Assembly: GCF_021155765.1 (NCBI RefSeq)
Contig: NC_060112.1
Location: 2,356,001 to 2,420,000, forward strand
DNA length: 64,000 nt
Reading direction: 5' to 3'
Source of the DNA: Diprion similis
Taxonomy: Eukaryota > Arthropoda > Insecta > Hymenoptera > Diprionidae
The notes below the pieces were generated by a model. It did not search any database and was not told the DNA's origin. It worked only from the letters and a program-made list of their open reading frames with translations. Below are positions 3,001 through 64,000 of the stretch, piece by piece. How positions within the stretch are numbered: the first letter of the stretch is position 1; every line of letters starts with the position of its first letter. A program made the translations under genes and the position numbers.

Positions 3001-4850
3001 CTTAGGCTTCGGTTTTGTTTTTTATTATAGGCAATGGCGTTATTATTCGGCCTGCAATCTTCGTGGAAGGTCACATAAAAACGGAAGACGAGTCTTGAGG
3101 TGAGCTTACACGGAATTTGTTCATATTTCGCAGTCCGCTTAAATAAGCTCTCGGTAAGTGCGTCAGAGCTGGCGACCGCGGCCGCGTATTTGAAAACGTT
3201 CTCGTAATATGCTTATAGCTGAATCATCCGGCACTTTTTTAGCTCGCCTAGGATATACATTAATGTATACGGGTATAATAAACGCGGCATGGCTGTAATC
3301 AAGCTTCGCTTTTCATCTGCTTTTCGACCGTCCGAGTGCAGGATGCGAGTGACGATACATTGCGAAATTATTGCGAATTTCAGCAGTTTTATCTCTTATC
3401 ACAAAACCCGTCTGCCCTTCACTTTCCTCCCCGTTCATACGAGCACTTCTTCACTCGACCTGCGTTCTGCACGGTCTCAAGGGCTTTTATACCATACGAA
3501 CATGCATGCAATGAGATGTGGCGAGACAGGATTGAAACAATATGACGGCCTTAAGTATGAAAGATACTTAAGTCACGAGGATTACTGCACTCTTACGTGA
3601 TTCATAAATGCCGGAGTTTATGAGTTTCGTGGACCACACGCGTCGAAGAAAATGAGTTCCTGGTTATACGTGGGATTAGGAATGCAGTCTAATCCTCGAG
3701 ACTTTGTCGCGCTTTCGGTGTGACGATTTGTCGACGATGTCTTTGAACGATTTTTTTCTCTCCTTCAGATGATTGATATTTTTGTATAATATATTATGTA
3801 CGCGGATTATCACATCCCTTTGTAATTTTAATTTTTCTTGGTCGACTGAAAAGATTTCACGGATCTTTTACTCGTGAGTGGGACGCATGATGTGTGCATG
3901 TGTGTAACATTTATAACGCGGTCCTCGATGGTTGACCGGAAATACAGAATATTATACATGTAAATTTATGACTGACGCCTGCGAGATTTTTCTAGCAAAT
4001 AATGTTATTTTGATCGTTGGTCAGGAACCGATTATAACCGTGAATCGGAGAGTTTAGAACTGTGTTTCATTTGATATGAGACGAAAAAAAACTAAACGAT
4101 ATTAGATACGGCACTGTGCATATGATTTAGGAAATTCACGACTTACTATATCACATAACCCGCATGAAAATTTCATCGCAAATTGGATGTGGAGCAAAAG
4201 AGTTGAAACAGAAGAAATTCGTGTTCTTTTAACAAAAACGAGAATTCACGAGCGGTGAAATGTTTCGATAATATCCGGCGCATATCTGCAGGCTCCTGAT
4301 CGTTGACATGTTACAAAATCTCTAGAAGAGCGAAAAAAGGTAAGCAGGGACAAGAAGGTAAATCAAAAAATGTAAAAAAAAAATAAAAATAATATTCAGA
4401 TGCTCCGCCTTTCGTACCCGTAAACATCAATCAATCAACAACCTTTAGTTGGAAGAAATCGGATAAGCAGATATCTGCATCAAGCAATATCGTCAAATGC
4501 ATATGAGGCATAAATACAACAACCGTGAGTCGGCAGTAATATATTCAACGGTCTGAATACCCTCATTGTTCATTAATCGGTATTTATTCTGGAAACTGCA
4601 GTTCTGTCATGTCTGCTTCGACGATCGCATTAACGCGTCGCGCAAACTGGTACCGCGTCGCGACGCCACGGGCCGATACCTAGAAAGAAAGGGGGATAGG
4701 AGGACTGCAGGTTCATCATCAGTCGAGCACTGAGCGATCCGCGAGACGGTTGCCTAGGTGCAGCGGATCGCGAGAGCTCGATCGATAAGAGTGCTCGCGT
4801 ACTGTTAAGTAAGCGGGAAACGCAGTCGGTAAGTGGCAGCAAGTGTGAGG
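1..4850. other. AT-rich intergenic sequence, no supported gene
   Basis: I read both strands and found only short open frames without recognisable domains, without plausible splice-site pairs linking them, and without coding-like composition. It may be intergenic DNA or an intron of a gene lying outside the window. The only structured item I see is the poly-C tract at 701-721. Confidence 0.5.
701..721. repeat. poly-C homopolymer tract (21 C)
   Basis: An uninterrupted run of 21 cytosines. Tracts of this length are unusual in AT-rich insect DNA and are prone to length errors in sequencing, so the exact count is uncertain. A second tract of 16 C lies at 5264-5279. Confidence 0.9.
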
Positions 4851-11030: not shown

Positions 11031-14000
11031 TCAGTCCGTTGGCGGTTCTAGATACGGTATTTCACTCGTAACATTGAACGATTCGAAATAGTGATTGAGG
11101 TATTCAAAGGTCGGTCGTTTCTCCGGACTCGCGTCCCAGCACTGCAGCATCAGGGTGTATATGCTGTCCGGTAGCGGGTGATTCGCCGGTTTTGGCATCC
11201 TGTAACCCTTCTCAACGTGCTCGACGACCTCCCGGCCGTGCATACCTGCGATAAAACGTATCACTGATTAACCGAGAAGAGAAAAAGAGAGATAGAGAGA
11301 GGTGACAATCGTTCATTTGACTTACCCGGATAGGGCACTTGGCCGTAGGTGAAGAGTTCGTTGAGCAAAATTCCGTAGGACCAGACGTCGCTCTTTATGC
11401 TGAACCTGGCGTATATTATAGCCTCAGGAGCGGTCCATTTTACTGGAAATTTGCTGCCCTGTTTAGGACAGTACTCGTTGTCCTTGATCACCCTTGCCAG
11501 ACCAAAGTCGCATATTTTCGCCTTGTTCTTTTCGCCTATAAGGACGTTTCGCGCGGCCAAGTCCCTGTGAATCAGCTGTTTGCTTTCGAGGTATTCCATG
11601 CCCGAGGCGACCTGCGACGCGATGTATATTAGGTCCTCGAACTGCATGTATCTGCCGTCCCCGGTCCTCAGGAAGTCGAGTAAGCTACCGTTGCACATGT
11701 ACTCTTGGACTATGTATATCGGCTCCTCCTTCGAACAGACTGCGTACAAGGCGACTAGGTGTCTGTGCCTAAGGTGTTTCATTATAGCTGCCTCCTGCAA
11801 AAATGCCTCAGAGGACATTGTTCCCTCGCGCAACGTCTTCACCGCCACTTCTATCTGGTTTCGCCATTTTCCGTAATACACTTCGCCGAAGTTACCGTGT
11901 CCCAGCTTGTTTATAAGCTGTATTTGGTTCCTGTTTATCTCCCATTTGTCACGTAACTCCGGTCCTAGGTCCCACATGTCCGGCAACGGTTTTGGACACG
12001 GTTTCGCCAGCACGTGACAAAGTCCCAGCGCGTTTTCTGAATAGCATCAGACAAGAAATGTTACAAAACCAATAACCATTTTTCAGGATGTTATATATCG
12101 AGGCACTTCTCACTTACTGCTGTACGCCATTACGAGGGCTGGTAGAGTGGCGAAAGTTTGATTAGTCGCTATATAAAATCCACCATTGTCCAGGGGTTTG
12201 ATTTTGTAGTGTTTCACATGATGCCCGCGTCCCTCTTCCCAATCCTTTACTGAAAGACTGTATCCTCTTGGCGTGTGTTCGCTCGGTCTAACAAGGAAAG
12301 TACCCCGTGGATTTTCGTCGACGAGAAGTAATTTCCCGGCCTCCTTCCTCGATACGTTGTCGAAGAACCAACTGTTCGATAAATATGTCATATTCATTAT
12401 GTGTGAATAAAACACGATATTAATTGCTACCTAGTTTGACAGCGAATAATTCGTGACCAAGCAGTGAGAAAAAAAAATACCCGAATGCTGTCATTTTCTC
12501 TAATAGATTAAAAACGTTATCAAATTTATAACATTCAGTAAACATTACATATCCGCATGTGTCTACCACACATAATCAAGTCCAAAGTTCTGAAACACTC
12601 TCTTGTGTGTAATGAATGGTATAGTGCTTACGGAAATTCGAGAACAATGGAGACAACTGTTTATATATTAATATTAAGTTGAATCTTTTTCGGTTTATTT
12701 TACGTGTTAAATATACGTATATAGTTTCCCTTCCTTTGCAATGTCTATCAAAAAGTCCTTATATTTTTTATACTCACTCCTCGCTTTCGACGGAACGTTC
12801 GACGGCGACGAAATTCCACGGTATCAATCCCTCGTGGAGGGTAGTCAGGTGAAGTACTTTCCACCAATCCGGTTCCGTGTCATCCAACACCTCCATCCTG
12901 TCGCCCTTCACAAAACTGACGTCGGTGCTTTCCCTCGCCGCATAATTGTATAATGCTACCACGATTTTGTTCGATCTTTGCGAATGTACTGCAGTGCAAT
13001 GGAATAAATACAGAGCATTGAACGAATAAGTCATCGGTACACGGGAGAAATTATTTGAATCTTTTGTTACAGACAATAACAACGACAACGAGGCATTGAC
13101 TAAGAATAGAGTTTGTACAACGATAAACATGCTTCCATGCTTAAATTTGTTTGCAAAATATAGATAAATTGAAAAGAATCCTGAACTATGCATATTCGCA
13201 CACGGATAAAATCCACTTGACCGATGTTTAGACCGAAGTCTGTTAGATTAGCAACGATGCTCTAATTTGATATCCAAAATAATGATCGTATTGAGGGAGG
13301 AAGAGAATAAGCAAAAATTATCATTAACTCATTGTCAGTGTAACGAAATGAAGCCTATTTCGATTTGTACGAATCGGTTCGAATGGCGTATTTTTTTTTT
13401 CACGAGTTCATACTATACCGGGTGTCCTATTTTAATGTAACACCTGATTTATCTCGAAAAATACTGCTTTGATCGAATATTAAGTAGAATAAAACTTTGG
13501 GTGGTACATTAAAATGTGACACCCGGTATAACTCTTCGTCATTTATGATCTAGCAGTGCCGGATGGAAGATCGATTTCACGTCTCAGTTGGCAAGAAATT
13601 GGAAAAACCGAGATGCCAGTGATTTGAGTCGGTTAATTGCAAGTTAGCATCGTCCCGATACGATCAGCTGATAAGACACAACGACGATACGAATAACGAT
13701 AAAAATTCAGTATTTTAAATGAAATGCGTCGTATCAATCTATTAATAACTAAAATTACATTGACGTCAATGAGGATGAAACAATAAGGATACTAATAATA
13801 ATAACGGAAATAATAAGTTACACACATGCAACTGAAAAAGACGGGGAAGATAATTCACGCAGATGAATCGATTTTGGGATTAAAATCGGAGGCTCACAGG
13901 GTGTCTGTCTCGGGCGAATAATATCAACTCTGGTCTGAGGGCAGCGCCGATTTGGATCTTCCGAGTATCTCTTGTCGAGGGAACTTCCGTTGCTGTGCGC

Positions 14001-49800: not shown

Positions 49801-50639
49801 AGCGCAGTCCCAATACGCTGCGAGCAACGCATCAAAAGTTACAGCCAAAAAACAAAAAATTCTCATCGTCATTTCTCTGCTGTTGGTCCGACGCTCTTTT
49901 TCATGTGTTTTCTGAGTTCCTGGGGGTCCAATTGACCAGGAGATGGTCATACGAATCGATTCCAAAACGAAAAATTTTCGGCTCCGAAAATAAGCAAAAA
50001 AGTAAGGCTAACCCCTTTGGATTTTTGGCGGAAATTTCGACGATTCTAAAAAGAGCTGAAATGAATTCTTGAAGGCACTATTCCGACGTAATTTCGCGAG
50101 AGAAATCGAATGAGCGCAGTCCCAATACGCTGCGAGCAACGCATCAAAAGTTACAGCCAAAAAATAAAAAATTTTCATCATAATTTCTGTGCTGTTGGTC
50201 CGACGCTCTTTTTTATGTGTTATCTCAGTTCCTGGGGGTCCAAATACCCTGGAGATGGTCACACAAATCGATTCCAAAACGAAAAATTTTCGGCTCCGAA
50301 AATGAGCAGAAAAGTAAGGCTAACCCCTTTGGATTTTTGGCAAAAATTTCGTCGATTCTAAATAGAGCTGAAATGAATACTTAATTGCACTATTCCGACG
50401 TAATTTTGCGGGAGGAATCGATTGAGCGCAGTCCCAATACGCTGCGAGCAACGCATCAAAAGTTACAGCCGAAAAACTGAAAATTCTCATCGTCATTTCT
50501 CTGCTGTTGGTCCGACGCTCTTTTTCATGTGTTTTCTGAGTTCCTGGGGGTCCAATTACCCAGGAGAAGGTCATACAAATCGATTCCAAAACGAAAAATT
50601 TTCGGCCCCGAAAATAAGTAAAAAAGTAAGGCTAACCCC
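46884..50639. repeat. 312-bp satellite array, segment 2 (12 monomers)
   Basis: The array resumes in register after the solo LTR and runs 12 monomers to the full-length element. The monomer order resembles that of about 38191-40998 minus one unit, so this is a third, shortened relative of the 7-monomer higher-order repeat. Confidence 0.96.
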
Positions 50640-52776
50640 TGTTACGTGGGAGGGTGAACGTGTGGAGAGCGATGGAAGTTTATGACTATTAAAGATAATA
50701 ATCAATTATGCACCCACGTAACAGCGCTGAATAAAAATTAAAACTAAGAAGGACCTACCTTTCGGTACGCCGGTATTTGTAGGATCGTGTTACTTTAGTC
50801 CTATACAGGGCTGTGAGCTTTGTTTAAATAGGTTGAGGCTAATTCTAAAATTGGGGAAGGTCGTCGTTCAAAATAAATGGTGATTTTGAGTTAACTGGTA
50901 AAAGAGAATATGTATAATTCAAACGATAGGTAAATGTAATTGGTAAATTGATAACAATGAACAAAGGTTATATTAACGATTAAATTTTGAGAAGACGGAC
51001 AATTCGGATTCTTAAATGGTTACGGAAATGAAGCAAAATAGAAGCTTGTACCAAGAACATCTATATTGAATGCGTATTAATACTATATGGTCTTTTAAAT
51101 GCTTGTATCCTTCTTTCTTTCTATATTTATGAGATTGGTAAACTAACGTGCCAATTGGATTGGCCCGCGGAAGCACCCGTCACTAGAAGTGTTTCTGATA
51201 ATTTAGAAAATAGCCGTTGAGGTTGAGTCGGGAGAATCACTCTCGGGATGTGCAGGAGCACACGGACGACAACCTTACGTCTTTCTAATAAAACCAACAA
51301 GGTCGTGTCGGGAGAATCGCTCTCGGGATGTGCAGGAGCACACGGACGACAACCTTGTGTAAAAGACTTTGTATACGTGCTTCCGCCGGTCAATGCAAAC
51401 AAGTTTTATGAAATCACGTTATGAAAATTCGTGGTTAATTACAATGTTGAAGTGGCTTAGATGCTGGGGCCGAGCTGAAGATTGGAGAATCACTCTCGGA
51501 ATACCCAAAGGATATTTTCCACAACTAGGCTCCAAATCTAATATTGTTTCTTATGAAGGTTCTTAGAAAACAACATGCGTCTCGAAGATGGCAAGAAAAG
51601 CTCACCACCAACTCTTGGTATTTAATTGAAAGATAATTTTGATGATTTGGTAAAAACAAGAATTTGAAAAGTGTTGGTGAACGCTGCTCGAATTGACTTA
51701 TCTTTTGATGTTGGTGACGACGAGATTGAGAGCCGTCGGATCGTGTCGTTGGTAACTGGAGCAGAGCCTCACCTCAGATGTAGACGAGTATTCGGGTTTC
51801 GTAGAAGTTATTTGGTGGATTATTAATATGGTTTGTCGTGAAGTTACTATTAATTATTTTAGTCAAACACTTAAACTTTACCTGATTCTTGAGAATCAGG
51901 GCGGAGCTTAATTTGATTTTAAATTTAAGGAAATGAATATCATAAAAATGTCTATTCGTGAAAATAAGAGAGTTAGTACAGAAACAGGAAAGAAATGAAG
52001 TTAGGTGATAGAAAGTCTTTGCAATTCACAGAACAAATTGAAAGCTTTAAGATGACGAATCAGCTTGGTACTTTAGGCCGGTCACAACGAAGATTTTCCG
52101 AACACTACTATCGACCAGAAGGGCTGACCCGGGTTGACGTCCACGCACCACGCGACTTGACAGACGAAAGACATTGTTTCTTGGGCCTGACGGTCCAAGA
52201 ACCCTCGGTGCAACTAAGTACAACGGTAATCAGCCAATGGGGTGCAAGGGCGACCTCCCGGTGCCAGAATCGGCATGGTCAGGGTTTTTCCGGGTCCGAC
52301 TCGAGTGTTAAGACGGTGTTCCGACGATTCTCAATCTCGTCGGTTACATACTATGGTATGAGCAAAAGATATGTAGATGTAATTCTCACACATTCGAGCA
52401 GACATCTTAATAAATAGCCTATTTTAACTTGGTACATATTGTGTAATCGGTTTAGCCTAATTATTAATAATTATAATTTTGATTTAGAAAAAGAAGATAC
52501 TTTTGGGCTGAGTGCCACTGCGTTTCATGTCCGCACTTCAATTTAGGTTCTTGGTACCGCTAAATAACCCTAAACTAAAACTAATACTGAGGCTCTGCGT
52601 TGCTTCCTCTAAGAGCGGTGGAAATCCCCTGTTTAGACAATCTGTTATTTTAGCGCTGTTTATTGCGCTGCAGCTTATTCACAAATGTTCAAGATGTTTT
52701 ATTGAAATAAGCCGTCTTTGGTCGCTATGTACGATTGAACAAAAGGTTCGCCTAGGCGGTACGTCGGGGCGTAACA
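50640..52776 (-). repeat. 3' LTR (2137 bp)
   Basis: It has TG...CA ends. On the plus strand its edge TGTTACGTGGG is repeated inverted at 50712-50723 (ACCCACGTAACA), so that end of the LTR can fold into a hairpin. It contains two 50-bp direct repeats (51227-51276, 51307-51356). Same length as the 5' LTR. Confidence 0.95.
51227..51356. repeat. Two 50-bp direct repeats inside the LTR
   Basis: The motif beginning gtcgggagaatc and ending cgacaacctt occurs at 51227-51276 and 51307-51356, differing at one base. A related partial unit (ggagaatcactctcgg) follows at about 51484. The same arrangement is in the 5' LTR (about 61988-62117) and, inverted, in the solo LTR. Such repeats within LTRs are often enhancer-like or insulator-like; here that is an inference. 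Confidence 0.8.
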
Positions 52777-52788
52777 TCCCTCCCCACT
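52777..52788 (-). other. Polypurine tract next to the 3' LTR
   Basis: The minus strand reads AGTGGGGAGGGA immediately before the LTR start TGTTACG. This is the position and composition of the plus-strand primer of LTR retroelements. Confidence 0.75.
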
Positions 52789-54291
52789 TAGAAAAAGTCA
52801 ACGTCCTCGTTGATGTATATTAATAAAAATGAAGCATGTATACAATTGCTTAAGGTTATATCTATAAAAATCCTATAAGGTAAATATCTTATTCTATTTG
52901 ACGTTTGTGTCCTATCCACGACAGAGTAGCCGGCGGCAGAATTTCTCTCGTTGATCAGCAATGCTGGTCAGCCGGTTTCTCTTGTGAATAGAGGATTCTT
53001 TAACTATAATGGGTGAGGCATTCATGGGATTTTACTTTTTGCTATCGAAGAGTTCGGGTATCGAACGGGACACATTAAGTGTTTTCTAAACATTTTGGAG
53101 TCGTCCAGTAAGATTGTGATTGCGAGGATCTCGTGAATTGTGCGGCCCTATTTTTTTCTTTTCGGCGGTGGATTATACTTTCGGTGATCGGTTAGGCTAA
53201 TTAGCCGAAACGTTGTTATTGTTTCCTACTTGTCGTGCGTGTCATTTCTACGGTGAGGTTGCTGTTAATGTTTCTGAAGGATTCAGTTGGCGTGAGACTG
53301 ACTCTCGGTAATCAGTTGAACTGATTAGCCAATTTTCCCCATCACATGAACATGTCTATAAATTTTAAATTAAATATGCATATTTTCATCAGCATTCGGC
53401 GCTACTGGAAATCAGGTGTATTGTGTCCTCTGGCTGGTGATCGAGGTCTGCAGCATTTGCTCGTAGAGAAGGCTTAGGTTTTAGTAGCCTTCTGGTGGAT
53501 CCAGTAATATGTAGCCCACTGATACTCGTGGTGGTCCACCTCCGTAGGTGTAGGGTGAGTACCTTGGCAGCGGATCCTCATCGATGTTGGTTGACGAGCA
53601 GACATTTTGGCAGTACTTTGAAGTGCTGCGGTGTATCGGCAACCGGATCGACATCCCTTTTATGTGCCCGTAGGTTTCCGTCACCTCAGGAGCGTGATGT
53701 TTCCCTGGGTTTCTTTGGAAAAGGTTCAGTCTGGACTCGAACAGCTTGTAGACTGCATACAGCCACTCGTACTCGCCTTTTCTCCTGTTAATTTTTGTAA
53801 AATTTTTCAGCAGATTGCCATTTCACATAAGTGTTTGCCGGAATTCCAATGGTCATATTTACTAATGTACTGTAGTTTTTGATTTCAATTTGGGAAGGGA
53901 GGAATTTCGAAAGAAAGGACGGGTTTTGAGGTTAACGTCATACTGGGTATTTGGGAAATTTCTGAATGGCCTCTAAGAGCGGATGGAGTTCAACGGTGAA
54001 CGTTCATCCTAGATGTCAACTTCAAACTTAGAGCTAGTTACAGATGCGTATCCCTCGTTGCGGTTGGTCACGCCCCAGCCGATGGCGTTAATCTTAAAAC
54101 TATTTAAAATTAAAGAATCTACGCATATTTTATATGAAAATTTCTTCGGATTGTTTCCGCAGGTCTTTTCGCATTGTACTCGCTTCTGGGCTCATCTGTG
54201 TCACCTCGGTTTCCACATGACCTTCCTCGTTACTGGTTCCGAAAATGAGTGCTCTTCATCTATTCTGCATGTTCTGACTCCTTTTATCCAT
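52789..54291 (-). other. Untranslated 3' part of the element, no env
   Basis: About 1.5 kb between the pol stop and the polypurine tract. No long open frame, signal peptide or membrane segment is seen on the sense strand. Two small inverted motifs (ggctaattagcc near 53193 and tcagttgaactga near 53314) are visible. It probably serves as a 3' untranslated or regulatory region. Confidence 0.6.
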
Positions 54292-55320
54292 TCAACAAGC
54301 CAATTCGAGTTTGTCTACATGTTTTACAAATCTCTCACCATTATTACCTTCCAACACCACGCTATTGTTTTCCAAGACCTTTATGATTTTATATGGACCC
54401 TGGTATCGCTTGCTAAACTTCCCTTTCCTAGCCTCTATCTGAACGCGTACCATGTCCCCTGGCTTACCTTTAAAAGGATGTACTTTCCTGTCGTAATACA
54501 TTTTCGACCTTTGCTTTGCCTGTATCAAATTATTAGCAGCTATAGTTTGCATTTCTTTCATTCTAATCATTAGATCATTGAGATAAGAGTTGTACGTTGG
54601 AGGATACTCGTTTGTCTCGAATGAGTTTGGACAGCGCGCTGTTCTTCCGAAAACCAATTCATACGGTGTAAAATTTGTGGCTTCATGAACTGCCGTATTA
54701 TATGAAAACATCGCGAATTGAACTAGCTCATCCCAATCGTTGAATTCGTTTATGTAATGTTTGATATACTCAGTCAAAACTATGTGGCTGCGTTCTAAAG
54801 CGCCATTAGATTGCGGGCGATAACTTGATGTAGTTATGTGTTTAATTTTAAAAGCATCAGCTAATTTCTGTAATAAACCATTTACGAAACTTGTTCCTCT
54901 GTCTGTCAAAATTATTTTCGGTGTCCCGAATTGCAAAATCAAATGTTTCACCATCGCGTGAGCTACGGTTTCGGCTCTAATATTAGGCAAAGGCACGGCG
55001 ATGCAGAATTTGGTCAAGTTATCTTGCATAGTTAAAATATGTTTATTACCATTAGTCGTCTGTGGTAATGGGCCTACAGTGTCGAGTGAAATTTTCTCGA
55101 ACGGCTCTGATGGAGTGTCCGTTATCAACATTGGCTCCCTAGTTCTTACTCGAACCAATTTCTGTTCTTGACAACTTCCGCATTTTCTAATGAAATTGCT
55201 AATATCGTCACGCATTCGTGGCCAATAAAACCTTTCCCTAATCCTGCGGTACGTCTTTGTCATTCCCTTATGTCCTCCGATCACTCCCGCGTGTAATTCC
55301 GCTATTATCTCAGATCTAAT
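54292..55320 (-). other. Integrase region of Pol
   Basis: HHCC finger with H-x6-H and C-x2-C, then KISLDTVGPLP (first Asp), ILTDRGTSF (second Asp) and YRPQSNGALERSH (Glu). The C-terminal RYQGPYKI is the GPY/F module. No chromodomain is seen after it, so the satellite location is not explained by an obvious chromatin reader. Confidence 0.93.
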
Positions 55321-58300
55321 ATCTGCTGGAGGTACACTACATGTTCCAGTACAGATGGTAATGTCTACGTTTTCGTTTTCAAAAGTGTCTAGTAATAAGT
55401 TTGGCCAGATATCTGTTGGTAGTTCGTCGGTCGTGTCTCCTGATTTTGAAATTCTGAAAGTTTTGATTTCCAGATCAGACAATATCCTTTTCAAATTTTC
55501 CAGTGCTAGTTTTACATTCTGTAATTCAATTTTATCAAAGTATTTCTTTTTGATCACAAGGCTAAATACTCTGTACTTTCCTTGCGTTGTTACAATAATC
55601 TGCCCTAACTTTGGTTTCGCATCGCGTTGTTTGTCGGGGTTTATAATCTCTAAATCACCTAGCAGTCTGCTAATTGGTGTTGCTAATTCTGAATCTATGG
55701 AAGTGAAATGGACATAATTATCTTTTACGTATGTTAAATTCTCTCTACTTAGTGAAATTTTTCCTCGATTAGTGCGGGTTGCAGCTGGTAAATTTGAATG
55801 TTGTCTCACCTCTAGGTCTGGTGGTATCTTTTCAGTAACTTTGATCCTGTTTGATATATTGGAACTTCCTAACTCTGGTTGTAAGCGTCTTGGCGTCTTA
55901 GTGACCTTATTCTGTATTAAAATATCCCCTGTCTCATTCGATTCTGGTATCATACTTAAAGGATACGGAGTCGAGAGTGCTATTGGTCGGGGAACAACTA
56001 AAGGTGTTGGTATAGTCGATTTTTGAAAAGGTCGAGTGACTAAAGATTCATTCAAATTACTCTGACTGGTCCCAGTCTTGTCAGCCTCGTCGCTACTGCC
56101 TTTATTACTTCTTACTCGTTCTATAAATCTCTCAATTTTGTTATTTAAAATTTCGTCATCTGTCTCGTCGAGTTCGTCTAGTACTTCGCGAGCTAATTCC
56201 TCTAAATTTTCGCCTTCCGATATAGAACCTGGTAGTTCTATGCCTTCCTCATCTACATTATTTATGATACTCCTCTCATGTAATGTTTTGTCAAAACGGT
56301 CAAAAGATTTCCGTAACTCTGCTGGGTCTATCAGTGGTCTTCTGACCCTACATTCTCGTTCTATTGGCAGAAATACATCGTCATCTGACTCGTTATCTAT
56401 CCGTGTAGACTTCAATTCGATTGCTATATTTTCGGGCTCTAAATCAGATTCATCGTCCGCGTCAGTATTTGCGTCTGTCTGTAAGTCAATTTGTTCCTGT
56501 TCTACCGCGTCTCGCGATGTGGTCGCTTGTTCTGACCTTAAACTCGGTAGTACACTACGTTGTTTCCGGTAGGCCGGCGGTTCGGAGGATTCATCATCTG
56601 ATGAATCTGTCGAATCAGCCTCCGGTATCAGATTTAGATTTTCCCTAATTCCTGTTGTTGTCTTCGCCCGCGATCGCGTTCTTGATGCAATCGCATCTGT
56701 ACCTGGGTCAACTATCTTTTGATATTCGTACCTTGGCTGAAACGTGTCGTCAGCTGATTTTCTGGTTTTGCTAGATGAGCTTGATGCAATAGTTGGTCGA
56801 TTACCTTTCGCTGAGGAAACTGATTTCGCAATTGGTCTTTTAAATTTTGACGATGGTAATTTTGTAGGATTCGAGTCAATTGGTAAAATCCGCCATTGAT
56901 TATGTTTCGGCTTAGGTCTAATAACTGGTAACGGGTTGGTAATAGCAAATATCGTTTTAAGACTTTGGTTTTCTATCAAGGCTAAATTTGTACAGGCATA
57001 AATTTTAATTCCTGTTCCTCCGAAAATATATCGTAGCATGATTCTCACCTTGTGCCATTCCAGTTTATCCAAACCGCAACCCATTCTAGGTATCCTAATT
57101 GACTTTACTGTATCGTCTTCTAAAATTTTCCGGAAATTTACCAAACTACGGTACAAGTCTTCGTAAGCAGGTTTATCCCAAAAGTTTAATTTAGTCATAA
57201 TGTAATAAATTTTGTGTTCCGGTAATTCTAATTTTGCTACTGAGTGTAAATCGGCTTGACTAATGAGATGATCCGGTACACCGTACCGTTTTCGGAAGTC
57301 GGCTGCAATGCCGGCTTTCATGTCTAGATCCGCTGAAACTGTATGCGCGTAATTGTCGAGTTTGTCGAAAACACTCTCGTCTATTTCTATAATGTCTGGA
57401 TTTTTAATATCTGCTGTTTTAATAATTTTTAAGTAGTCTGAATATTTTGGAAAATCATCTATTGATTTGACTATAAAATCACTACTGTCACTATCGTTAT
57501 CGGTTGAGTCCGACATTTGGTTGTTTTCATCGGTGTCGGGAACTGGATTTCGCGAAAGCGCATCCGCGTTGACATTCAATCGTCCAGCTTTGTGATTAAA
57601 TTCATAATCATAATTTCTAAGTTTAAGCCTCCATCGTACTAATCTTTGTCCCGGATCTTTATAATTGTCGATCCATTTTAATGGTTCATGATCACTGAAA
57701 AGTTGGAATTTTCGGCCATAAAGGTAAGGTCGAAATTGGTTAACAGCATATACGACTGCGAGACATTCTTTTTCAGTTGTAAAATAATTTCGTTCTGCCT
57801 TGTTCAGAGCACGAGACAGGTAGGCGACAGGCATATCATAGCCCTCGACTTCCTGACTCAAAACTGCTCCAATGGCATAGTCAGATGCATCAGTAGTCAG
57901 AGTGAAAGGTTTATCAAAATTTGGATACTGCAAAATTGGTTGTTGACATAAAGATTTTCTAAGGATTTTAAAGCTTTTCTTTTGATCTTTTCCCCAATTA
58001 AAAGGTGTTTCCTTTTTCAAAAGTTCAGTGAGTGGCTTAGCTTTAGCCGCAAAGTCTTTTATGAAGCGCCTGTAATAGCCAGCGAGTCCAAGAAATTCTC
58101 TAATATTTTTCTGAGTTTTGGGTGTTGGAAAATTTCGAACTGCAATTATTTTCTTCGGGTCCGGTTTAACTCCCGATCTGCTAATTATGTGGCCTAGATA
58201 TGCGACCTCGGTTTTCAAAAATTCACACTTATCCGGTTGTAAAGTTAATTTTGCTTCTTTTAATTTATTGAATAATCGTCGGACCTTTTTACCGTGTTCC

Positions 58301-59682
58301 TCCAGATTCTTCGCGTAAACCACTATGTCGTCCAAATAAACGAAAACTTCGACGCCTTGCAATCCGCGTAATGTTTGGTCCATTAACCGTTGAAATGTCG
58401 CTGGCGCATTTTTCAACCCTTCCGGCATTCTAACGTATTCGTAATGACCGTTTGGTGTTGTGAACGCGGTCTTGGCTCTATCGCGTGGATCCATTTCAAT
58501 TTGTTGGAAACCGCTAGCAAGATCAAAGGTTGAAAAATACTGCGCCTCACCGAGATGATCTAAGATATCGGTAATGTTCGGCAATGGATACGCGTCTCCG
58601 ATGGTCTTTTCATTTAATTTTCGAAAGTCTATCACCATGCGCCATCTTGGTTTTCCCGCTGAGTCTGGTTTCTTCGGTACAATCCACACAGGTGAATTAT
58701 ACGGCGAGTTTGAAGGAACTATTATTCCGTTATCGATTTTGACTTTAATTTGATTTTCTATTTCAGTTTTATGAACTGGAGGAAAACGATACTGTCGCGT
58801 GTTGATTGGAATATCATCTGTAGTAGGTATTTGATGTTTAATACCGGGTGTAAATTTTAATTTATCCCCGGGTAGATGGAATAGTTCCGGAAATTCCTCA
58901 ATGATATCTAACACGTGTTCGTGTTCCTCTTTGTTTAAATGACCTAAATGTAATTTTGATTGAATTTCCTCAAATCGGTTGGTCGTTACAGGCTCAATGC
59001 TTAACTCATCTGAACTAGAATCAAAATATTCACGTTCTTCAGGAAAATTATGATATTCAAAAGGGGTCAATTCCTGTGGTGGAATCTCTATTTCGATATC
59101 CTTGTCAAGAGTATTTATCGCCAGGACATGGCACGCGCCATCCTGAACCGAGACGGCAGCCTCACCAATGTATACGCCTTCGATGGTTTCTATGCGTGGT
59201 AAATAGGCTTCGTTTCTGCCGCAGCTGATGACGTCAATGCCAATGGCTTGTTTCGTTCTCGCTTTAATTTTGTAAAATCTTTTCCGCGGTTTTGTTTCTA
59301 AATCAGAGTCTGAATCGTGCTCATGTCCAATGAATCGAATCGGTTTTATCGGCGCTGTTTCCATGACTATCGTATTGTGTGTAAATGAAATTTCTGCCTT
59401 TCGTTCACGCAAAAAATCTTTTCCCAAGATTCCGTCACAAGGTAATGGAAATGTGGAACGTACCACGTGAATTTTACTTGGATAATTTTGAATTGTTAAA
59501 TTCGCAACTCCTAAGGTTTCGATTTCTTCAGTTGTTATTCCCGTGATAATTGAAATTTCGTCGGTGCAAATCAACACGTCAGGATGTAAAATCTTTGCCT
59601 TTATTAAACTGATATCTGCGCCAGTGTCGATTAAGAATTCGCCTGAGTGATTTTTTAATTCTGGAGCTGTTATTCGAATTAA
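54292..59682 (-). CDS. pol: Ty3/gypsy Pol polyprotein: protease, RT, RNase H, macrodomain, macro-like domain, integrase
   Basis: The open frame continues upstream of its first ATG (59577) into the gag end. The protease motif LIDTGAD lies before that ATG (DTGAD at 59614-59628), so translation needs a -1 shift from gag. Numbering from the ATG (1761 residues): protease tail with GILGKDFL (49-56); RT about 205-480 with Asp352 and YLDD (414-417); RNase H about 555-676 with Asp563, Asp629 and Asp672; TARG1-like macrodomain about 703-865; acidic, Ser-rich linker about 870-1270; macro-like domain about 1285-1412; integrase zinc finger His1429, His1436, Cys1466, Cys1469; DDE core Asp1499, Asp1559, Glu1595 (35-residue D-E spacing); GPY-type tail about 1724 onward. 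No stop or frameshift breaks it. Usual gypsy pols are near 1000-1100 residues; the excess is all between RNase H and integrase. Role: reverse transcription and integration of the element. Confidence 0.95.
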   Translation of the reverse strand, partial: LIRITAPELKNHSGEFLIDTGADISLIKAKILHPDVLICTDEISIITGITTEEIETLGVANLTIQNYPSKIHVVRSTFPLPCDGILGKDFLRERKAEISFTHNTIVMETAPIKPIRFIGHEHDSDSDLETKPRKRFYKIKARTKQAIGIDVISCGRNEAYLPRIETIEGVYIGEAAVSVQDGACHVLAINTLDKDIEIEIPPQELTPFEYHNFPEEREYFDSSSDELSIEPVTTNRFEEIQSKLHLGHLNKEEHEHVLDIIEEFPELFHLPGDKLKFTPGIKHQIPTTDDIPINTRQYRFPPVHKTEIENQIKVKIDNGIIVPSNSPYNSPVWIVPKKPDSAGKPRWRMVIDFRKLNEKTIGDAYPLPNITDILDHLGEAQYFSTFDLASGFQQIEMDPRDRAKTAFTTPNGHYEYVRMPEGLKNAPATFQRLMDQTLRGLQGVEVFVYLDDIVVYAKNLEEHGKKVRRLFNKLKEAKLTLQPDKCEFLKTEVAYLGHIISRSGVKPDPKKIIAVRNFPTPKTQKNIREFLGLAGYYRRFIKDFAAKAKPLTELLKKETPFNWGKDQKKSFKILRKSLCQQPILQYPNFDKPFTLTTDASDYAIGAVLSQEVEGYDMPVAYLSRALNKAERNYFTTEKECLAVVYAVNQFRPYLYGRKFQLFSDHEPLKWIDNYKDPGQRLVRWRLKLRNYDYEFNHKAGRLNVNADALSRNPVPDTDENNQMSDSTDNDSDSSDFIVKSIDDFPKYSDYLKIIKTADIKNPDIIEIDESVFDKLDNYAHTVSADLDMKAGIAADFRKRYGVPDHLISQADLHSVAKLELPEHKIYYIMTKLNFWDKPAYEDLYRSLVNFRKILEDDTVKSIRIPRMGCGLDKLEWHKVRIMLRYIFGGTGIKIYACTNLALIENQSLKTIFAITNPLPVIRPKPKHNQWRILPIDSNPTKLPSSKFKRPIAKSVSSAKGNRPTIASSSSSKTRKSADDTFQPRYEYQKIVDPGTDAIASRTRSRAKTTTGIRENLNLIPEADSTDSSDDESSEPPAYRKQRSVLPSLRSEQATTSRDAVEQEQIDLQTDANTDADDESDLEPENIAIELKSTRIDNESDDDVFLPIERECRVRRPLIDPAELRKSFDRFDKTLHERSIINNVDEEGIELPGSISEGENLEELAREVLDELDETDDEILNNKIERFIERVRSNKGSSDEADKTGTSQSNLNESLVTRPFQKSTIPTPLVVPRPIALSTPYPLSMIPESNETGDILIQNKVTKTPRRLQPELGSSNISNRIKVTEKIPPDLEVRQHSNLPAATRTNRGKISLSRENLTYVKDNYVHFTSIDSELATPISRLLGDLEIINPDKQRDAKPKLGQIIVTTQGKYRVFSLVIKKKYFDKIELQNVKLALENLKRILSDLEIKTFRISKSGDTTDELPTDIWPNLLLDTFENENVDITICTGTCSVPPADIRSEIIAELHAGVIGGHKGMTKTYRRIRERFYWPRMRDDISNFIRKCGSCQEQKLVRVRTREPMLITDTPSEPFEKISLDTVGPLPQTTNGNKHILTMQDNLTKFCIAVPLPNIRAETVAHAMVKHLILQFGTPKIILTDRGTSFVNGLLQKLADAFKIKHITTSSYRPQSNGALERSHIVLTEYIKHYINEFNDWDELVQFAMFSYNTAVHEATNFTPYELVFGRTARCPNSFETNEYPPTYNSYLNDLMIRMKEMQTIAANNLIQAKQRSKMYYDRKVHPFKGKPGDMVRVQIEARKGKFSKRYQGPYKIIKVLENNSVVLEGNNGERFVKHVDKLELAC
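55342..55725 (-). other. Degenerate second macro-like domain in Pol (residues about 1285-1412)
   Basis: The order of elements parallels the first macrodomain: NYVHFTSIDSEL, then RVFSLVIKKKYFDK, NVKLALENLKRILSDLEIKT, FRISKSGD and NVDITICTG. The glycine-rich GIA loop is replaced by ATPIS, and the GCGLD motif by a KSGDTTDE-like stretch, so both ADP-ribose-binding loops look lost. A Lys persists near 1343. I infer a duplicated, inactivated copy; a structure prediction would decide. Confidence 0.5.
56983..57471 (-). other. TARG1/OARD1-like macrodomain in Pol (residues about 703-865)
   Basis: NYAHTVSADLDMKAGIAADF matches the TARG1 N-terminal strand and GAGIA loop. IYYIMTK places Lys796 (57190-57192) at the catalytic Lys84 of human TARG1. 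KPAYEDLYRSL matches its KPTYENLQKSL. IPRMGCGLDKLEW places Asp837 (57067-57069) at catalytic Asp125. GIKIYACT is the final strand. TARG1 hydrolyses ADP-ribose ester links on glutamate/aspartate and can act on O-acetyl-ADP-ribose and ADP-ribosylated nucleic acid ends. Retention of both residues argues for an active enzyme; activity itself is not shown. Confidence 0.88.
57550..57915 (-). other. RNase H region of Pol
   Basis: FTLTTDASDYAIGAVLSQ opens the domain, FSDHEPLKW carries a second Asp, and NADALSR closes it. This is a typical gypsy-type RNase H removing the RNA strand during reverse transcription. Confidence 0.93.
58138..58965 (-). other. Reverse transcriptase region of Pol
   Basis: The RT blocks are in order: SPYNSPVWIVPKK, RMVIDFRKLN, FSTFDLASGFQQI, MPEGLKNAPATFQ, VYLDDIVVYA and AYLGHIIS. 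The YLDD aspartates are intact. Confidence 0.95.
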
Positions 59683-61028
59683 CGGCGATTCTCGATTTGG
59701 TCCGCACGAGTAGACTCTCCGGACGGCGGTTCTGCAAACCGTACCGTCGGCTGACGCTTGGGCATCGCGCTCCTCGCCGTCGCGTCGGTTCGGTGAGTCG
59801 CGTTGGAGTTTAAATTCTCATCATTTCTTCGCGGAGATGGTGATCGCGCTCTGTTATTTGAATGGTTGTCATCATATGCACGCGAGAAGGAGTTTGGTGA
59901 ATTCGGTCGGTAATTATTCCGATTTTCCGAGCTTGGTCTGATGTTTTCGGCCCACCTTCCAGTTGGCGATATCGATCTAGACGATGAAGTTAATACTGGT
60001 CGCTGAATAAACGGGGATGAATTGGGCATCGCTGGTATGTACCCATGAGGTGATACACAAGGGCAACCCATCGGTGGATACACGTGAGGTGGTGTTTGGT
60101 AGTAAAACGGTTGTTCATATCGAGTATTCGAATTATATTGGGGTGGGTAAAACCCATGTGCCGCGGGTGCATAAAAACCATGTGGCGCGGGTCGGTAATA
60201 CCCACGCGGTTCCGGCGATGACCTCCCGCTGGCGCTTGTCGTCGGGTACCTGCTATTTACTACGCTCGGCGACGGGCTCCTCACACGTGTTTCCCTATCC
60301 TCTGAAACCGGGTAATTCGAATATCTACGGTGCCTGTCATATACATCATATGGGACGGGGGAAACCGGTCGAGTAAATTGCACTCTTTGGGTTTCTTCCG
60401 AAGGGATTATCCCTTGCTCTATCCGCATTTCCGTTTTACTAGCTAATTCGTGTGCCTCTTCCAGGGTTTTCACTCGTCCCTCTACGTACCTGAAGATATT
60501 TAACGGTAATCCCCGCATGTATGCGTCTAAACCGCTTTCCTTCAGAGATTTTATTATTCCTTCTAGTTCCGGTGAAGGATATCTATCTTCTAGCGATAGT
60601 CGAGCTCCATGTACAAGTATATTGAGGCGGTCGTAAAAATCACTAACGTTCTCGTCGCGTTTCATCCTCAATGATAAGATTTCCTGCTGATAATAAGCGA
60701 ATGTTTTATTCGCGGCGAAACGGTTTTTCAGATGTTTAGTTAATTCATCGATTGTATTGAATTTCTTCCCGTAAGTGCTATCTCGCGCTCTACCTTGTAA
60801 TTTGGATAAAACGGCCTTTACGTACGCGGTTTCTGAATTCGGCGGGACGTATACCGACCCGTTGTGTACGTCTTGAAGGAAATCTTTCAACGGAATGTTC
60901 TTCCCGTCGAAAATGGGAATATTAGCGGTGCTCTGTTGTAACGCGAAACATTCTGCCATAGACGTCATCATCATGCTACTTGCGTCTAAGCCTGATACAT
61001 TAGATCGGTCCGCGCTCTGATTCGGCAT
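59679..61028 (-). CDS. gag: Gag polyprotein of the Ty3/gypsy element (449 aa)
   Basis: An uninterrupted frame from ATG 61028, about 370 bases inside the 5' LTR. Residues about 40-215 are the helical capsid-like retrotransposon gag region, with LKDFLQDVHNG, AVLSKLQGRARD, FYDRLN and YMRGLPLNIF. Residues about 230-350 are rich in Pro and Tyr with repeated HGFY. The end is rich in Arg and Ser. No CCHC zinc knuckle is present, so RNA binding probably relies on the basic Arg-Ser tail. It ends at a TAA (59681-59679). Pol overlaps in the -1 frame. I saw no classical slippery heptamer, so the way pol is expressed is unclear. Confidence 0.88.
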   Translation of the reverse strand: MPNQSADRSNVSGLDASSMMMTSMAECFALQQSTANIPIFDGKNIPLKDFLQDVHNGSVYVPPNSETAYVKAVLSKLQGRARDSTYGKKFNTIDELTKHLKNRFAANKTFAYYQQEILSLRMKRDENVSDFYDRLNILVHGARLSLEDRYPSPELEGIIKSLKESGLDAYMRGLPLNIFRYVEGRVKTLEEAHELASKTEMRIEQGIIPSEETQRVQFTRPVSPVPYDVYDRHRRYSNYPVSEDRETRVRSPSPSVVNSRYPTTSASGRSSPEPRGYYRPAPHGFYAPAAHGFYPPQYNSNTRYEQPFYYQTPPHVYPPMGCPCVSPHGYIPAMPNSSPFIQRPVLTSSSRSISPTGRWAENIRPSSENRNNYRPNSPNSFSRAYDDNHSNNRARSPSPRRNDENLNSNATHRTDATARSAMPKRQPTVRFAEPPSGESTRADQIENRR

Positions 61029-61373
61029 TTTGTATCGTTATTTAATAAAGTGATAGTTTATTTACACAAGAAATGTGCGCTATTTTTAGCAAAAATTCAG
61101 CACACAGATGAATACACAATTGACCAATGGAAATTCGGCAATGTACGATAACAGGGTATACAATATATATATATGTATATACGATGGTACAATTTATAAA
61201 TTACAGGTTTTCAATGCACAATATCTTACAAATCAAATATGCCTTAAAAAGAAAGGAAGATACGTTTCTTATCAATCGTTTGACCAATTTCCAAAGGGGT
61301 TTCAAAAATTCAAAAATTCAAAATCTCAAAAATAATTTTTTTTTATTTAAACAAATCTCAGCTTAAGCAACAG

Positions 61374-61392
61374 TATCCCACCGCTGCCACCA
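61374..61392 (-). other. Candidate primer-binding site
   Basis: The minus strand reads TGGTGGCAGCGGTGGGATA starting 9 bases inside the 5' LTR. It has the TGG that pairs with a tRNA CCA end. Which tRNA it matches I cannot tell by eye; a start at the second TGG (61389) is equally possible. Confidence 0.5.
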
Positions 61393-61400
61393 AAACAGGA

Positions 61401-63537
61401 TGTTACGTGGGAGGGTGAACGTGTGGAGAGCGATGGAAGTTTATGACTATTAAAGATAATAATCAATTATGCACCCACGTAACAGCGCTGAATAAAAATT
61501 AAAACTAAGAAGGACCTACCTTTCGGTACGCCGGTATTTGTAGGATCGTGTTACTTTAGTCCTATACAGGGCTGTGAGCTTTGTTTAAATAGGTTGAGGC
61601 TAATTCTAAAATTGGGGAAGGTCGTCGTTCAAAATAAATGGTGATTTTGAGTTAACTGGTAAAAGAGAATATGTATAATTCAAACGATAGGTAAATGTAA
61701 TTGGTAAATTGATAACAATGAACAAAGGTTATATTAACGATTAAATTTTGAGAAGACGGACAATTCGGATTCTTAAATGGTTACGGAAATGAAGCAAAAT
61801 AGAAGCTTGTACCAAGAACATCTATATTGAATGCGTATTAATACTATATGGTCTTTTAAATGCTTGTATCCTTCTTTCTTTCTATATTTATGAGATTGGT
61901 AAACTAACGTGCCAATTGGATTGGCCCGCGGAAGCACCCGTCACTAGAAGTGTTTCTGATAATTTAGAAAATAGCCGTTGAGGTTGAGTCGGGAGAATCA
62001 CTCTCGGGATGTGCAGGAGCACACGGACGACAACCTTACGTCTTTCTAATAAAACCAACAAGGTCGTGTCGGGAGAATCGCTCTCGGGATGTGCAGGAGC
62101 ACACGGACGACAACCTTGTGTGAAAGACTTTGTATACGTGCTTCCGCCGGTCAATGCAAACAAGTTTTATGAAATCACGTTATGAAAATTCGTGGTTAAT
62201 TACAATGTTGAAGTGGCTTAGATGCTGGGGCCGAGCTGAAGATTGGAGAATCACTCTCGGAATACCCAAAGGATATTTTCCACAACTAGGCTCCAAATCT
62301 AATATTGTTTCTTATGAAGGTTCTTAGAAAACAACATGCGTCTCGAAGATGGCAAGAAAAGCTCACCACCAACTCTTGGTATTTAATTGAAAGATAATTT
62401 TGATGATTTGGTAAAAACAAGAATTTGAAAAGTGTTGGTGAACGCTGCTCGAATTGACTTATCTTTTGATGTTGGTGACGACGAGATTGAGAGCCGTCGG
62501 ATCGTGTCGTTGGTAACTGGAGCAGAGCCTCACCTCAGATGTAGACGAGTATTCGGGTTTCGTAGAAGTTATTTGGTGGATTATTAATATGGTTTGTCGT
62601 GAAGTTACTATTAATTATTTTAGTCAAACACTTAAACTTTACCTGATTCTTGAGAATCAGGGCGGAGCTTAATTTGATTTTAAATTTAAGGAAATGAATA
62701 TCATAAAAATGTCTATTCGTGAAAATAAGAGAGTTAGTACAGAAACAGGAAAGAAATGAAGTTAGGTGATAGAAAGTCTTTGCAATTCACAGAACAAATT
62801 GAAAGCTTTAAGATGACGAATCAGCTTGGTACTTTAGGCCGGTCACAACGAAGATTTTCCGAACACTACTATCGACCAGAAGGGCTGACCCGGGTTGACG
62901 TCCACGCACCACGCGACTTGACAGACGAAAGACATTGTTTCTTGGGCCTGACGGTCCAAGAACCCTCGGTGCAACTAAGTACAACGGTAATCAGCCAATG
63001 GGGTGCAAGGGCGACCTCCCGGTGCCAGAATCGGCATGGTCAGGGTTTTTCCGGGTCCGACTCGAGTGTTAAGACGGTGTTCCGACGATTCTCAATCTCG
63101 TCGGTTACATACTATGGTATGAGCAAAAGATATGTAGATGTAATTCTCACACATTCGAGCAGACATCTTAATAAATAGCCTATTTTAACTTGGTACATAT
63201 TGTGTAATCGGTTTAGCCTAATTATTAATAATTATAATTTTGATTTAGAAAAAGAAGATACTTTTGGGCTGAGTGCCACTGCGTTTCATGTCCGCACTTC
63301 AATTTAGGTTCTTGGTACCGCTAAATAACCCTAAACTAAAACTAATACTGAGGCTCTGCGTTGCTTCCTCTAAGAGCGGTGGAAATCCCCTGTTTAGACA
63401 ATCTGTTATTTTAGCGCTGTTTATTGCGCTGCAGCTTATTCACAAATGTTCAAGATGTTTTATTGAAATAAGCCGTCTTTGGTCGCTATGTACGATTGAA
63501 CAAAAGGTTCGCCTAGGCGGTACGTCGGGGCGTAACA
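61401..63537 (-). repeat. 5' LTR (2137 bp)
   Basis: Same length as the 3' LTR and almost identical to it; G at 62122 against A at 51361 is the one difference I noticed. It should carry the element's promoter, which I could not localise. Confidence 0.95.
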
Positions 63538-64000
63538 CCCCTTTGGATTTTTGGCAAAAATTTCGACGATTCTAGAAAGAGCTGAAATGAATTCTTGAAG
63601 GCACTATTCCGACGTAATTTTGCGAGAGAAATCGAATAAGCGCAGTCCCAATACGCTGCGAGCAACGCATCAAAAGTCACAGCCAAAAAACTAAAAATTT
63701 ACATCGTAATTTCTCTGCTGTAGGTCCGACGCTTTTTTTCATGTGTTTTCTGAGTTCCTGGGGGTCCAATTACCCAGGAGAAGGTCATACAAATCGATTC
63801 GAAAACGAAAAATTTTCGGCTCCGAAAATAAGTAAAAAAGTAAGGCTAACCCCTTTGGATTTTTGGCAAAAATTTCGACGATTCTAAAAAGAGCTAAAAT
63901 GAATTCTTGAAGGCACTACTCCGACGTAATTTTGCGGGAGGAATCGATAAGGCGCAGTCCCAATACGCTGCGAGCAACGCATCAAAAGTTACAGCCGAAA
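63538..64000. repeat. 312-bp satellite array, segment 3 (runs off the window)
   Basis: The array resumes after the CCCC target duplication in the same monomer position and register (next ggctaacccc at 63844). About 1.5 monomers are seen before the window ends, so the true array is larger. Confidence 0.96.

Follow-up and report, generated by a model that had tools for sequence, protein, structure and literature searches.

Does a retrotransposon of the hymenopteran Diprion similis carry its own enzyme for removing ADP-ribose? The question is raised by a Ty3/gypsy long terminal repeat (LTR) element in a 64,000-nucleotide window of contig NC_060112.1 (positions 2,356,001 to 2,420,000 of the forward strand; all coordinates below are positions in this window). 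The Pol polyprotein of this element includes a domain, macro1, that is a TARG1-type (ALC1-like) macrodomain by sequence and predicted fold. We consider it reasonably likely (a probability of roughly 0.7) that a clade of Ty3/gypsy-type elements captured a cellular TARG1 (OARD1) gene into Pol, that macro1 is most likely an active eraser countering host ADP-ribosylation, and that a second domain, macro2, is probably a module of the integrase.

Macro1 and its active site

The original prediction, made from the letters of the window, placed a TARG1-class macrodomain at 56983-57471, as residues 703-865 of a 1761-amino-acid frame (54292-59577, minus strand) that starts with GTG. This placement is correct. 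The plus strand across the region contains many stops, translation and Pfam locate the domain between RNase H and integrase, and all of the motifs that had been named are present. The residue numbers, which are also used here, are counted from an internal GTG; the actual opening of the Pol frame is at 59817, where a T TTA AAC heptamer lies alongside in phase.

Human TARG1 (C6orf130) is the top match of macro1 among the 22 rows returned by phmmer from PDB. It appears as five distinct sequences with E-values of 3.5e-22 to 4.3e-22, and the first row that is not TARG1 has an E-value of 0.021. Adenylate kinase and lymphostatin rows, at 0.15 or worse, were attributed to chance. The best structural match of the macro1 model is also TARG1, and not ALC1, so both checks named in the original prediction, a significant sequence match and a structural one, came out in its favor. 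Macro1 is no nearer to MacroD-type viral domains than to TARG1 in fold or sequence.

The motif YIMTK begins at residue 792 and includes Lys796, and MGCGLDKLEW begins at residue 832 and includes Asp837. As predicted, these two residues align with the catalytic lysine and aspartate in the phmmer alignment with TARG1, where we take the second to be Asp125. When counted through the alignment and the numbering in PMC7050489, Lys796 and Asp837 are the apparent equivalents of TARG1 Lys84 and residue 125; the excerpt of that paper prints these residues as Lys84 and 'Glu125'. The invariant columns of macro1 lie chiefly in the active-site loops (GIA, TK, KP and GCGLD-L-W), and the Lys/Asp pair is retained in 40 of 42 macro1-type rows.

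A second, diverged domain before integrase

The original prediction, which described a single macrodomain in Pol, overlooked macro2, whose C-terminal boundary is the start of the integrase zinc-binding domain. A lone macro2 sequence has no signal by itself against TARG1 (E 0.69), and the Pfam Macro family matches 1 of 7 macro2 members. In a single pairwise comparison, macro2 is 25% identical to macro1 (E 7e-9). The profiles of the two domains agree with 99.7% probability, and the macro2 profile retrieves TARG1 from PDB at E 3.8e-19. Human TARG1 is also matched by reduced sets of macro2 rows (E 5.4e-9 without family E, 5e-11 for families A-D) and by smaller ones (1.4e-6 for A and B, 2.5e-4 for C, D, Athalia and the protein P0122). 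As a control, 100 shuffled TARG1 sequences per set gave a best E-value of 250 or worse in each. Macro2 is, on these profile comparisons, a diverged TARG1-like macrodomain.

The aligned macro2 rows are 19-30% identical, and their catalytic columns vary among families. Among 31 rows, excluding the copy in the window, these columns read K/G in 23, T/D in 4, K/D in 3 and Q/N in 1. In the window's macro2, Lys and Asp occupy the corresponding columns (K64 and D105), but the GCGL loop is absent; the idea that macro2 is plainly dead was dropped on account of these two residues. Macro2 was also considered as an ordinary gypsy segment, and this was rejected because three Pols of the same genome without macrodomains (L051-L053) go unreported at E 1000 by all five macro2 profiles. 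A hint of LAGLIDADG similarity (E 0.11) was put down to chance. Macro2 probably serves the integrase as a structural or binding module.

Distribution, selection and the element in the window

The genome comprises 269 Mb, and 150 of its 218 macro1 candidates were scored. The window's element belongs to family A, in which the full 1841-amino-acid frame is present in six near-identical copies, each on a contig of its own. In fetched stretches, some of which end before the whole domain order is covered, reverse transcriptase, RNase H, macro1, a linker, macro2, the zinc domain and integrase occur in this order in families A, B, C, E and G. The search for gypsy Pols of the same order that the original prediction had suggested reveals a clade.

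Copies in so many places bear on whether macro1 is an artefact, either a pseudogene derived from host TARG1 or a join introduced during assembly of one copy. We found nothing in support of this explanation, although the host does possess two tandem TARG1-like genes (L037). Each of these has two matched parts with an intron between them, whereas Pol has no intron, and the domain is in frame in the six copies, in other families and in other organisms. The artefact explanation is thus refuted.

Integrases show the extent of the clade. Because 150 of 807 integrase candidates were scored, and 187 macrodomain positions rather than every row were used, the counts are lower bounds. Of the 150 scored matches, 104 are 46% or more identical to the window's integrase. 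At least 92 of these 104 have a macrodomain upstream on the same strand and no more than 4 kb away, and in at least 73 the distance is within 600 bases. None of the 46 integrases at 42% identity or less has a macrodomain within 4 kb upstream. Two of the 12 remaining integrases without a macrodomain match were partly inspected, and each has a weak macro2 piece. In the integrase tree, one branch (86/94) splits the nine sampled carriers from three non-carriers, L051-L053. Like the carriers, these Ty3/gypsy elements have the RNase H to integrase order; unlike them, they have a short, ordinary segment before the zinc domain where carriers have macro2. Long Pol frames among the integrase matches of non-carriers span 1070-1257 amino acids, versus up to 1896 in carriers.

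Two loci have additional arrangements. In L035 (family F), past the integrase, positions 2987-4132 of that locus (minus strand) hold two macrodomains on either side of a DTGA protease-like piece; the first is diverged, and the second is more like TARG1 and is interrupted by a stop. In L043, a relative of family G, a partial and a full macro1 occur in tandem at positions 702-1514 of that locus, on the plus strand.

A protein search with the window's Pol piece, scored on macro1, gave 516 candidates with none at E 0.001. When repeated with macro1 of family C, the search gave three relatives. P0121, an uncharacterised protein from the sawfly Athalia rosae, has an integrase and a macro1 that is 65% identical to that of family C. 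P0122 is a Pol of 1709 amino acids that comes from an assembled read set. P0123, a metagenome protein, joins integrase, chromodomain and macrodomain. In P0123, a weak match to a rhabdovirus glycoprotein (E 0.0019) follows the macrodomain and is possibly a captured envelope. Among the best 120 of 3321 macro1 relatives are P0051, whose macrodomain immediately precedes the zinc domain, and P0113, where it follows the integrase C-terminal domain. No reverse transcriptase, RNase H or integrase match was found within up to 2 kb on each side of the 80 macro1 relatives retained from 106 in IMG/VR. Models in BFVD indicate that insect RNA viruses (for example Kadipiro virus VP8 and thrips-associated viruses) have macrodomain folds close to macro1; the Kadipiro virus VP8 macrodomain is 32% identical to macro1.

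The macro1 domains of families C and G, Athalia and P0122 cluster with the host TARG1-like genes (93/92), and those of families A, B and E are placed elsewhere in the tree, on long branches. A single origin of macro1 is not rejected (p-AU 0.17).

Macro1 is held by purifying selection. In family A, the ratio of nonsynonymous to synonymous substitution rates (dN/dS) against two diverged copies is 0.09 and 0.12 for macro1, 0.03-0.04 for RNase H and 0.04 for reverse transcriptase, and the linker reaches 0.25 versus 0.09 for macro1 (414 aligned codons). The values in family C are 0.16 for macro1, 0.18 for macro2 and 0.60 for the linker. The macro2 domain, for all its divergence and its varying catalytic pair, is under similar constraint in family E (0.17). 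Such a pattern could be produced if the macro module were mainly structural, a spacer or folding part of Pol or integrase whose Lys/Asp pair was kept because it helps the fold or because the ancestry is recent. However, a mere scaffold would not need the active-site loops in which the invariant macro1 columns are concentrated, and we judge a mainly structural module to be quite improbable.

Several observations weigh against capture of an active eraser. The Pfam Macro family matches the window's macro1 at E 4e-4 with 20.7 bits, just below the curated cut-off of 22. Two rows depart from the conserved pair: the domain past the integrase in L035 has Glu, and in the full macro1 copy of L043 Arg replaces the catalytic Asp. 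The GDLF-loop Asp of most TARG1-type rows, including families B, C, E and G, is Ser in the window and in L007. This Asp presumably contacts adenine in TARG1, and because it is Ser, ADP-ribose binding may be altered in family A. Family D (L033) has macro2, and macro1 was not found there; family F (L035, L048 and L049) has a weak macro2 before integrase and no match of the macro1 type in the stretch from RNase H to integrase. An eraser at this position is therefore dispensable in some lineages. Finally, macro1 dN/dS values are higher in family E (0.21-0.48) and family G (0.35), and close pairs in family B give 0.41-0.93 on 8-14 changes, being too close to judge.

The element itself (Table 1) is a Ty3/gypsy LTR retroelement, as indicated by its TG...CA LTR ends, short target-site duplication, gag, and reverse transcriptase-RNase H-integrase order. 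The LTRs differ by a single mismatch, at base 51361, and a neighbouring satellite unit has the identical site with one CCCC only. The element is a young member of its clade and is active-looking. Its gag scores 23.9 bits versus the Retrotrans_gag cut-off of 24.1. The T TTA AAC heptamer, which lies right where the pol frame opens, is what one would expect as the signal of a -1 frameshift from gag to pol. The 312-bp satellite array surrounds the insertion at 50000-50639 and 63538-64000. Elsewhere, an open frame at 11261-12013 on the minus strand resembles, by eye, a Src/Btk-type tyrosine kinase and is apparently a host exon. Rfam and tRNA scans of the 64-kb window gave no match.

Table 1. Features of the macrodomain-bearing element and its insertion site
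Feature	Position	Strand	Basis or remark
Complete LTR element	50640-63537	-	12,898 bp; carries macro1
Target-site duplication CCCC, left copy	50636..50639		Inside 312-bp satellite array
3' LTR	50640..52776	-	2137 bp, TGTTACG...CGTAACA
Candidate polypurine tract GTGGGGAGGGA	52777..52787	-	Adjoins 3' LTR; by eye
Integrase C-terminal part	54292..54657	-	SH3_Tf2-1 E 0.03, weak, under its Pfam cut-off
pol open frame	54292..59817	-	1841 amino acids stop to stop; -1 frame relative to gag
Integrase catalytic core	54658..55107	-	Pfam rve E 1.8e-12
Integrase H2C2 zinc-binding domain	55108..55314	-	Pfam Integrase_H2C2 E 8.6e-21
macro2, diverged TARG1-like macrodomain	55315..55740	-	Directly before integrase zinc domain
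Linker, macro1 to macro2	55741..56982	-	Long, loosely conserved (dN/dS)
macro1, TARG1-type macrodomain	56983..57471	-	Residues 703-865 of GTG frame; core from about residue 727
Asp837, TARG1 catalytic aspartate equivalent	57067..57069	-	Sequence alignment
Lys796, TARG1 catalytic lysine equivalent	57190..57192	-	Sequence alignment
RNase H	57538..58017	-	Pfam RT_RNaseH E 5.8e-39
Reverse transcriptase	58168..58782	-	Pfam RVT_1 E 9.8e-39
Protease active-site motif DTGA	59617..59628	-	Translation, motif by eye
gag (449 amino acids)	59679..61028	-	Pfam Retrotrans_gag E 4.8e-5
T TTA AAC heptamer	59808..59814	-	In phase for -1 gag-to-pol frameshift
Candidate primer-binding site	61375..61392	-	Starts TGG, 8 nucleotides past 5' LTR; by eye
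5' LTR	61401..63537	-	2137 bp, TGTTACG...CGTAACA
Target-site duplication CCCC, right copy	63538..63541

Possible roles and known systems

The reading we favor is that a cellular TARG1 (OARD1) gene became part of Pol, between the RNase H and integrase portions, and that macro2 stands where other elements have an ordinary segment ahead of the integrase zinc domain. Because macro1 is part of Gag-Pol, it would enter the particle together with reverse transcriptase and integrase. In the particle, it could remove ADP-ribose that host PARP enzymes attach to Gag or Pol proteins (as Glu/Asp esters), which might benefit the element. Alternatively, its targets could be the complementary DNA (cDNA), at its ends or on thymidine, or the integration site. 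The original prediction that the element carries its own ADP-ribosyl hydrolase is well supported by conservation of the catalytic pair and by selection, and the activity itself is predicted from sequence. Because the TARG1 fold and the Lys/Asp pair are kept under purifying selection, macro1 is most likely an active hydrolase. Macrodomains adjoin integrase in the clade and in P0051, P0113 and P0123, so action on the cDNA, within the integrase complex or at the integration site is favored over a free cytoplasmic role; we infer that macro1 acts beside integrase. These observations suggest that the element counters or exploits host ADP-ribose marking.

Proximity to integrase also fits a reader rather than an eraser, in which macro1 and macro2 bind ADP-ribose or poly(ADP-ribose) in chromatin and thereby hold integrase at sites that are PARP-marked or damaged, with catalysis incidental. 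Chromodomains that guide other gypsy integrases offer an analogy, and P0123 combines integrase, chromodomain and macrodomain. Likewise, macro2 directly precedes the zinc domain and persists in L033, and the copy in the window is inserted in a satellite array. However, near-universal retention of the catalytic pair goes beyond the need of mere binding, the sequence class is that of hydrolytic TARG1, and the top structural match is TARG1 rather than ALC1. A reader is therefore unlikely.

Counting related and unrelated elements, macrodomains occupy at least four places beside integrase: between RNase H and the linker, immediately ahead of the zinc domain, past the C-terminus of integrase and after a chromodomain. 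A bolder proposal, about which we are tentative and somewhat doubtful, is that this insect retrotransposon clade is defined by a paired module in which an active TARG1-type eraser and a diverged partner turned integrase N-terminal part act together during integration, erasing or reading ADP-ribose at cDNA ends or on target DNA. On this proposal, the four places would indicate repeated capture, with ADP-ribosylation being a general host block to insertion outside vertebrates.

If the favored reading is true, a selected TARG1-type eraser in the Pol of an active-looking retrotransposon would extend macrodomain conflict to transposable elements and to invertebrates. According to an excerpt of PMC7050489, TARG1 removes ADP-ribose from Glu/Asp, O-acyl esters and nucleic-acid ends, and PMC8501950, also in excerpt, adds thymidine in DNA. 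Because TARG1 thus acts on DNA ADP-ribose too, it is a testable idea that the host ADP-ribosylates retroelement cDNA or the integration site. The isolated macro1 domain is small, and its activity is directly testable.

The domain in the window differs from human TARG1 in residing inside a retroelement polyprotein, in having Ser for the GDLF Asp, and in being paired with a diverged copy. The macrodomain of DarG, a bacterial antitoxin and DNA de-ADP-ribosylase, is 14-16% identical to macro1 and acts in a toxin-antitoxin pair. Virus-borne macrodomains are, in the excerpt of PMC7050489, chiefly of the MacroD type and found in RNA viruses (corona-, toga- and hepeviruses among them), where they counter vertebrate PARPs; these resemble macro1 as virus-borne domains directed against host ADP-ribosylation. 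The original prediction knew of no standard gypsy clade with this layout. In the open-licence literature, judged by titles and opening abstract lines with subscription papers and preprints outside that scope, we came across no report of a Ty3/gypsy Pol containing a macrodomain, and an in-frame TARG1-type domain there is apparently new. Retroelement-borne macro domains as such are already known, a precedent that the prediction overlooked. One sentence in PMC4977317, citing Basta et al. 2009, describes fish Epsilon-like retroviruses with a macro domain as additional open reading frames. Like the element in the window, these are reverse-transcribing elements that gained a macro domain gene; by that one-sentence description, theirs are separate frames in vertebrate elements, whereas here the domain is in frame within a Ty3/gypsy Pol, beside integrase.
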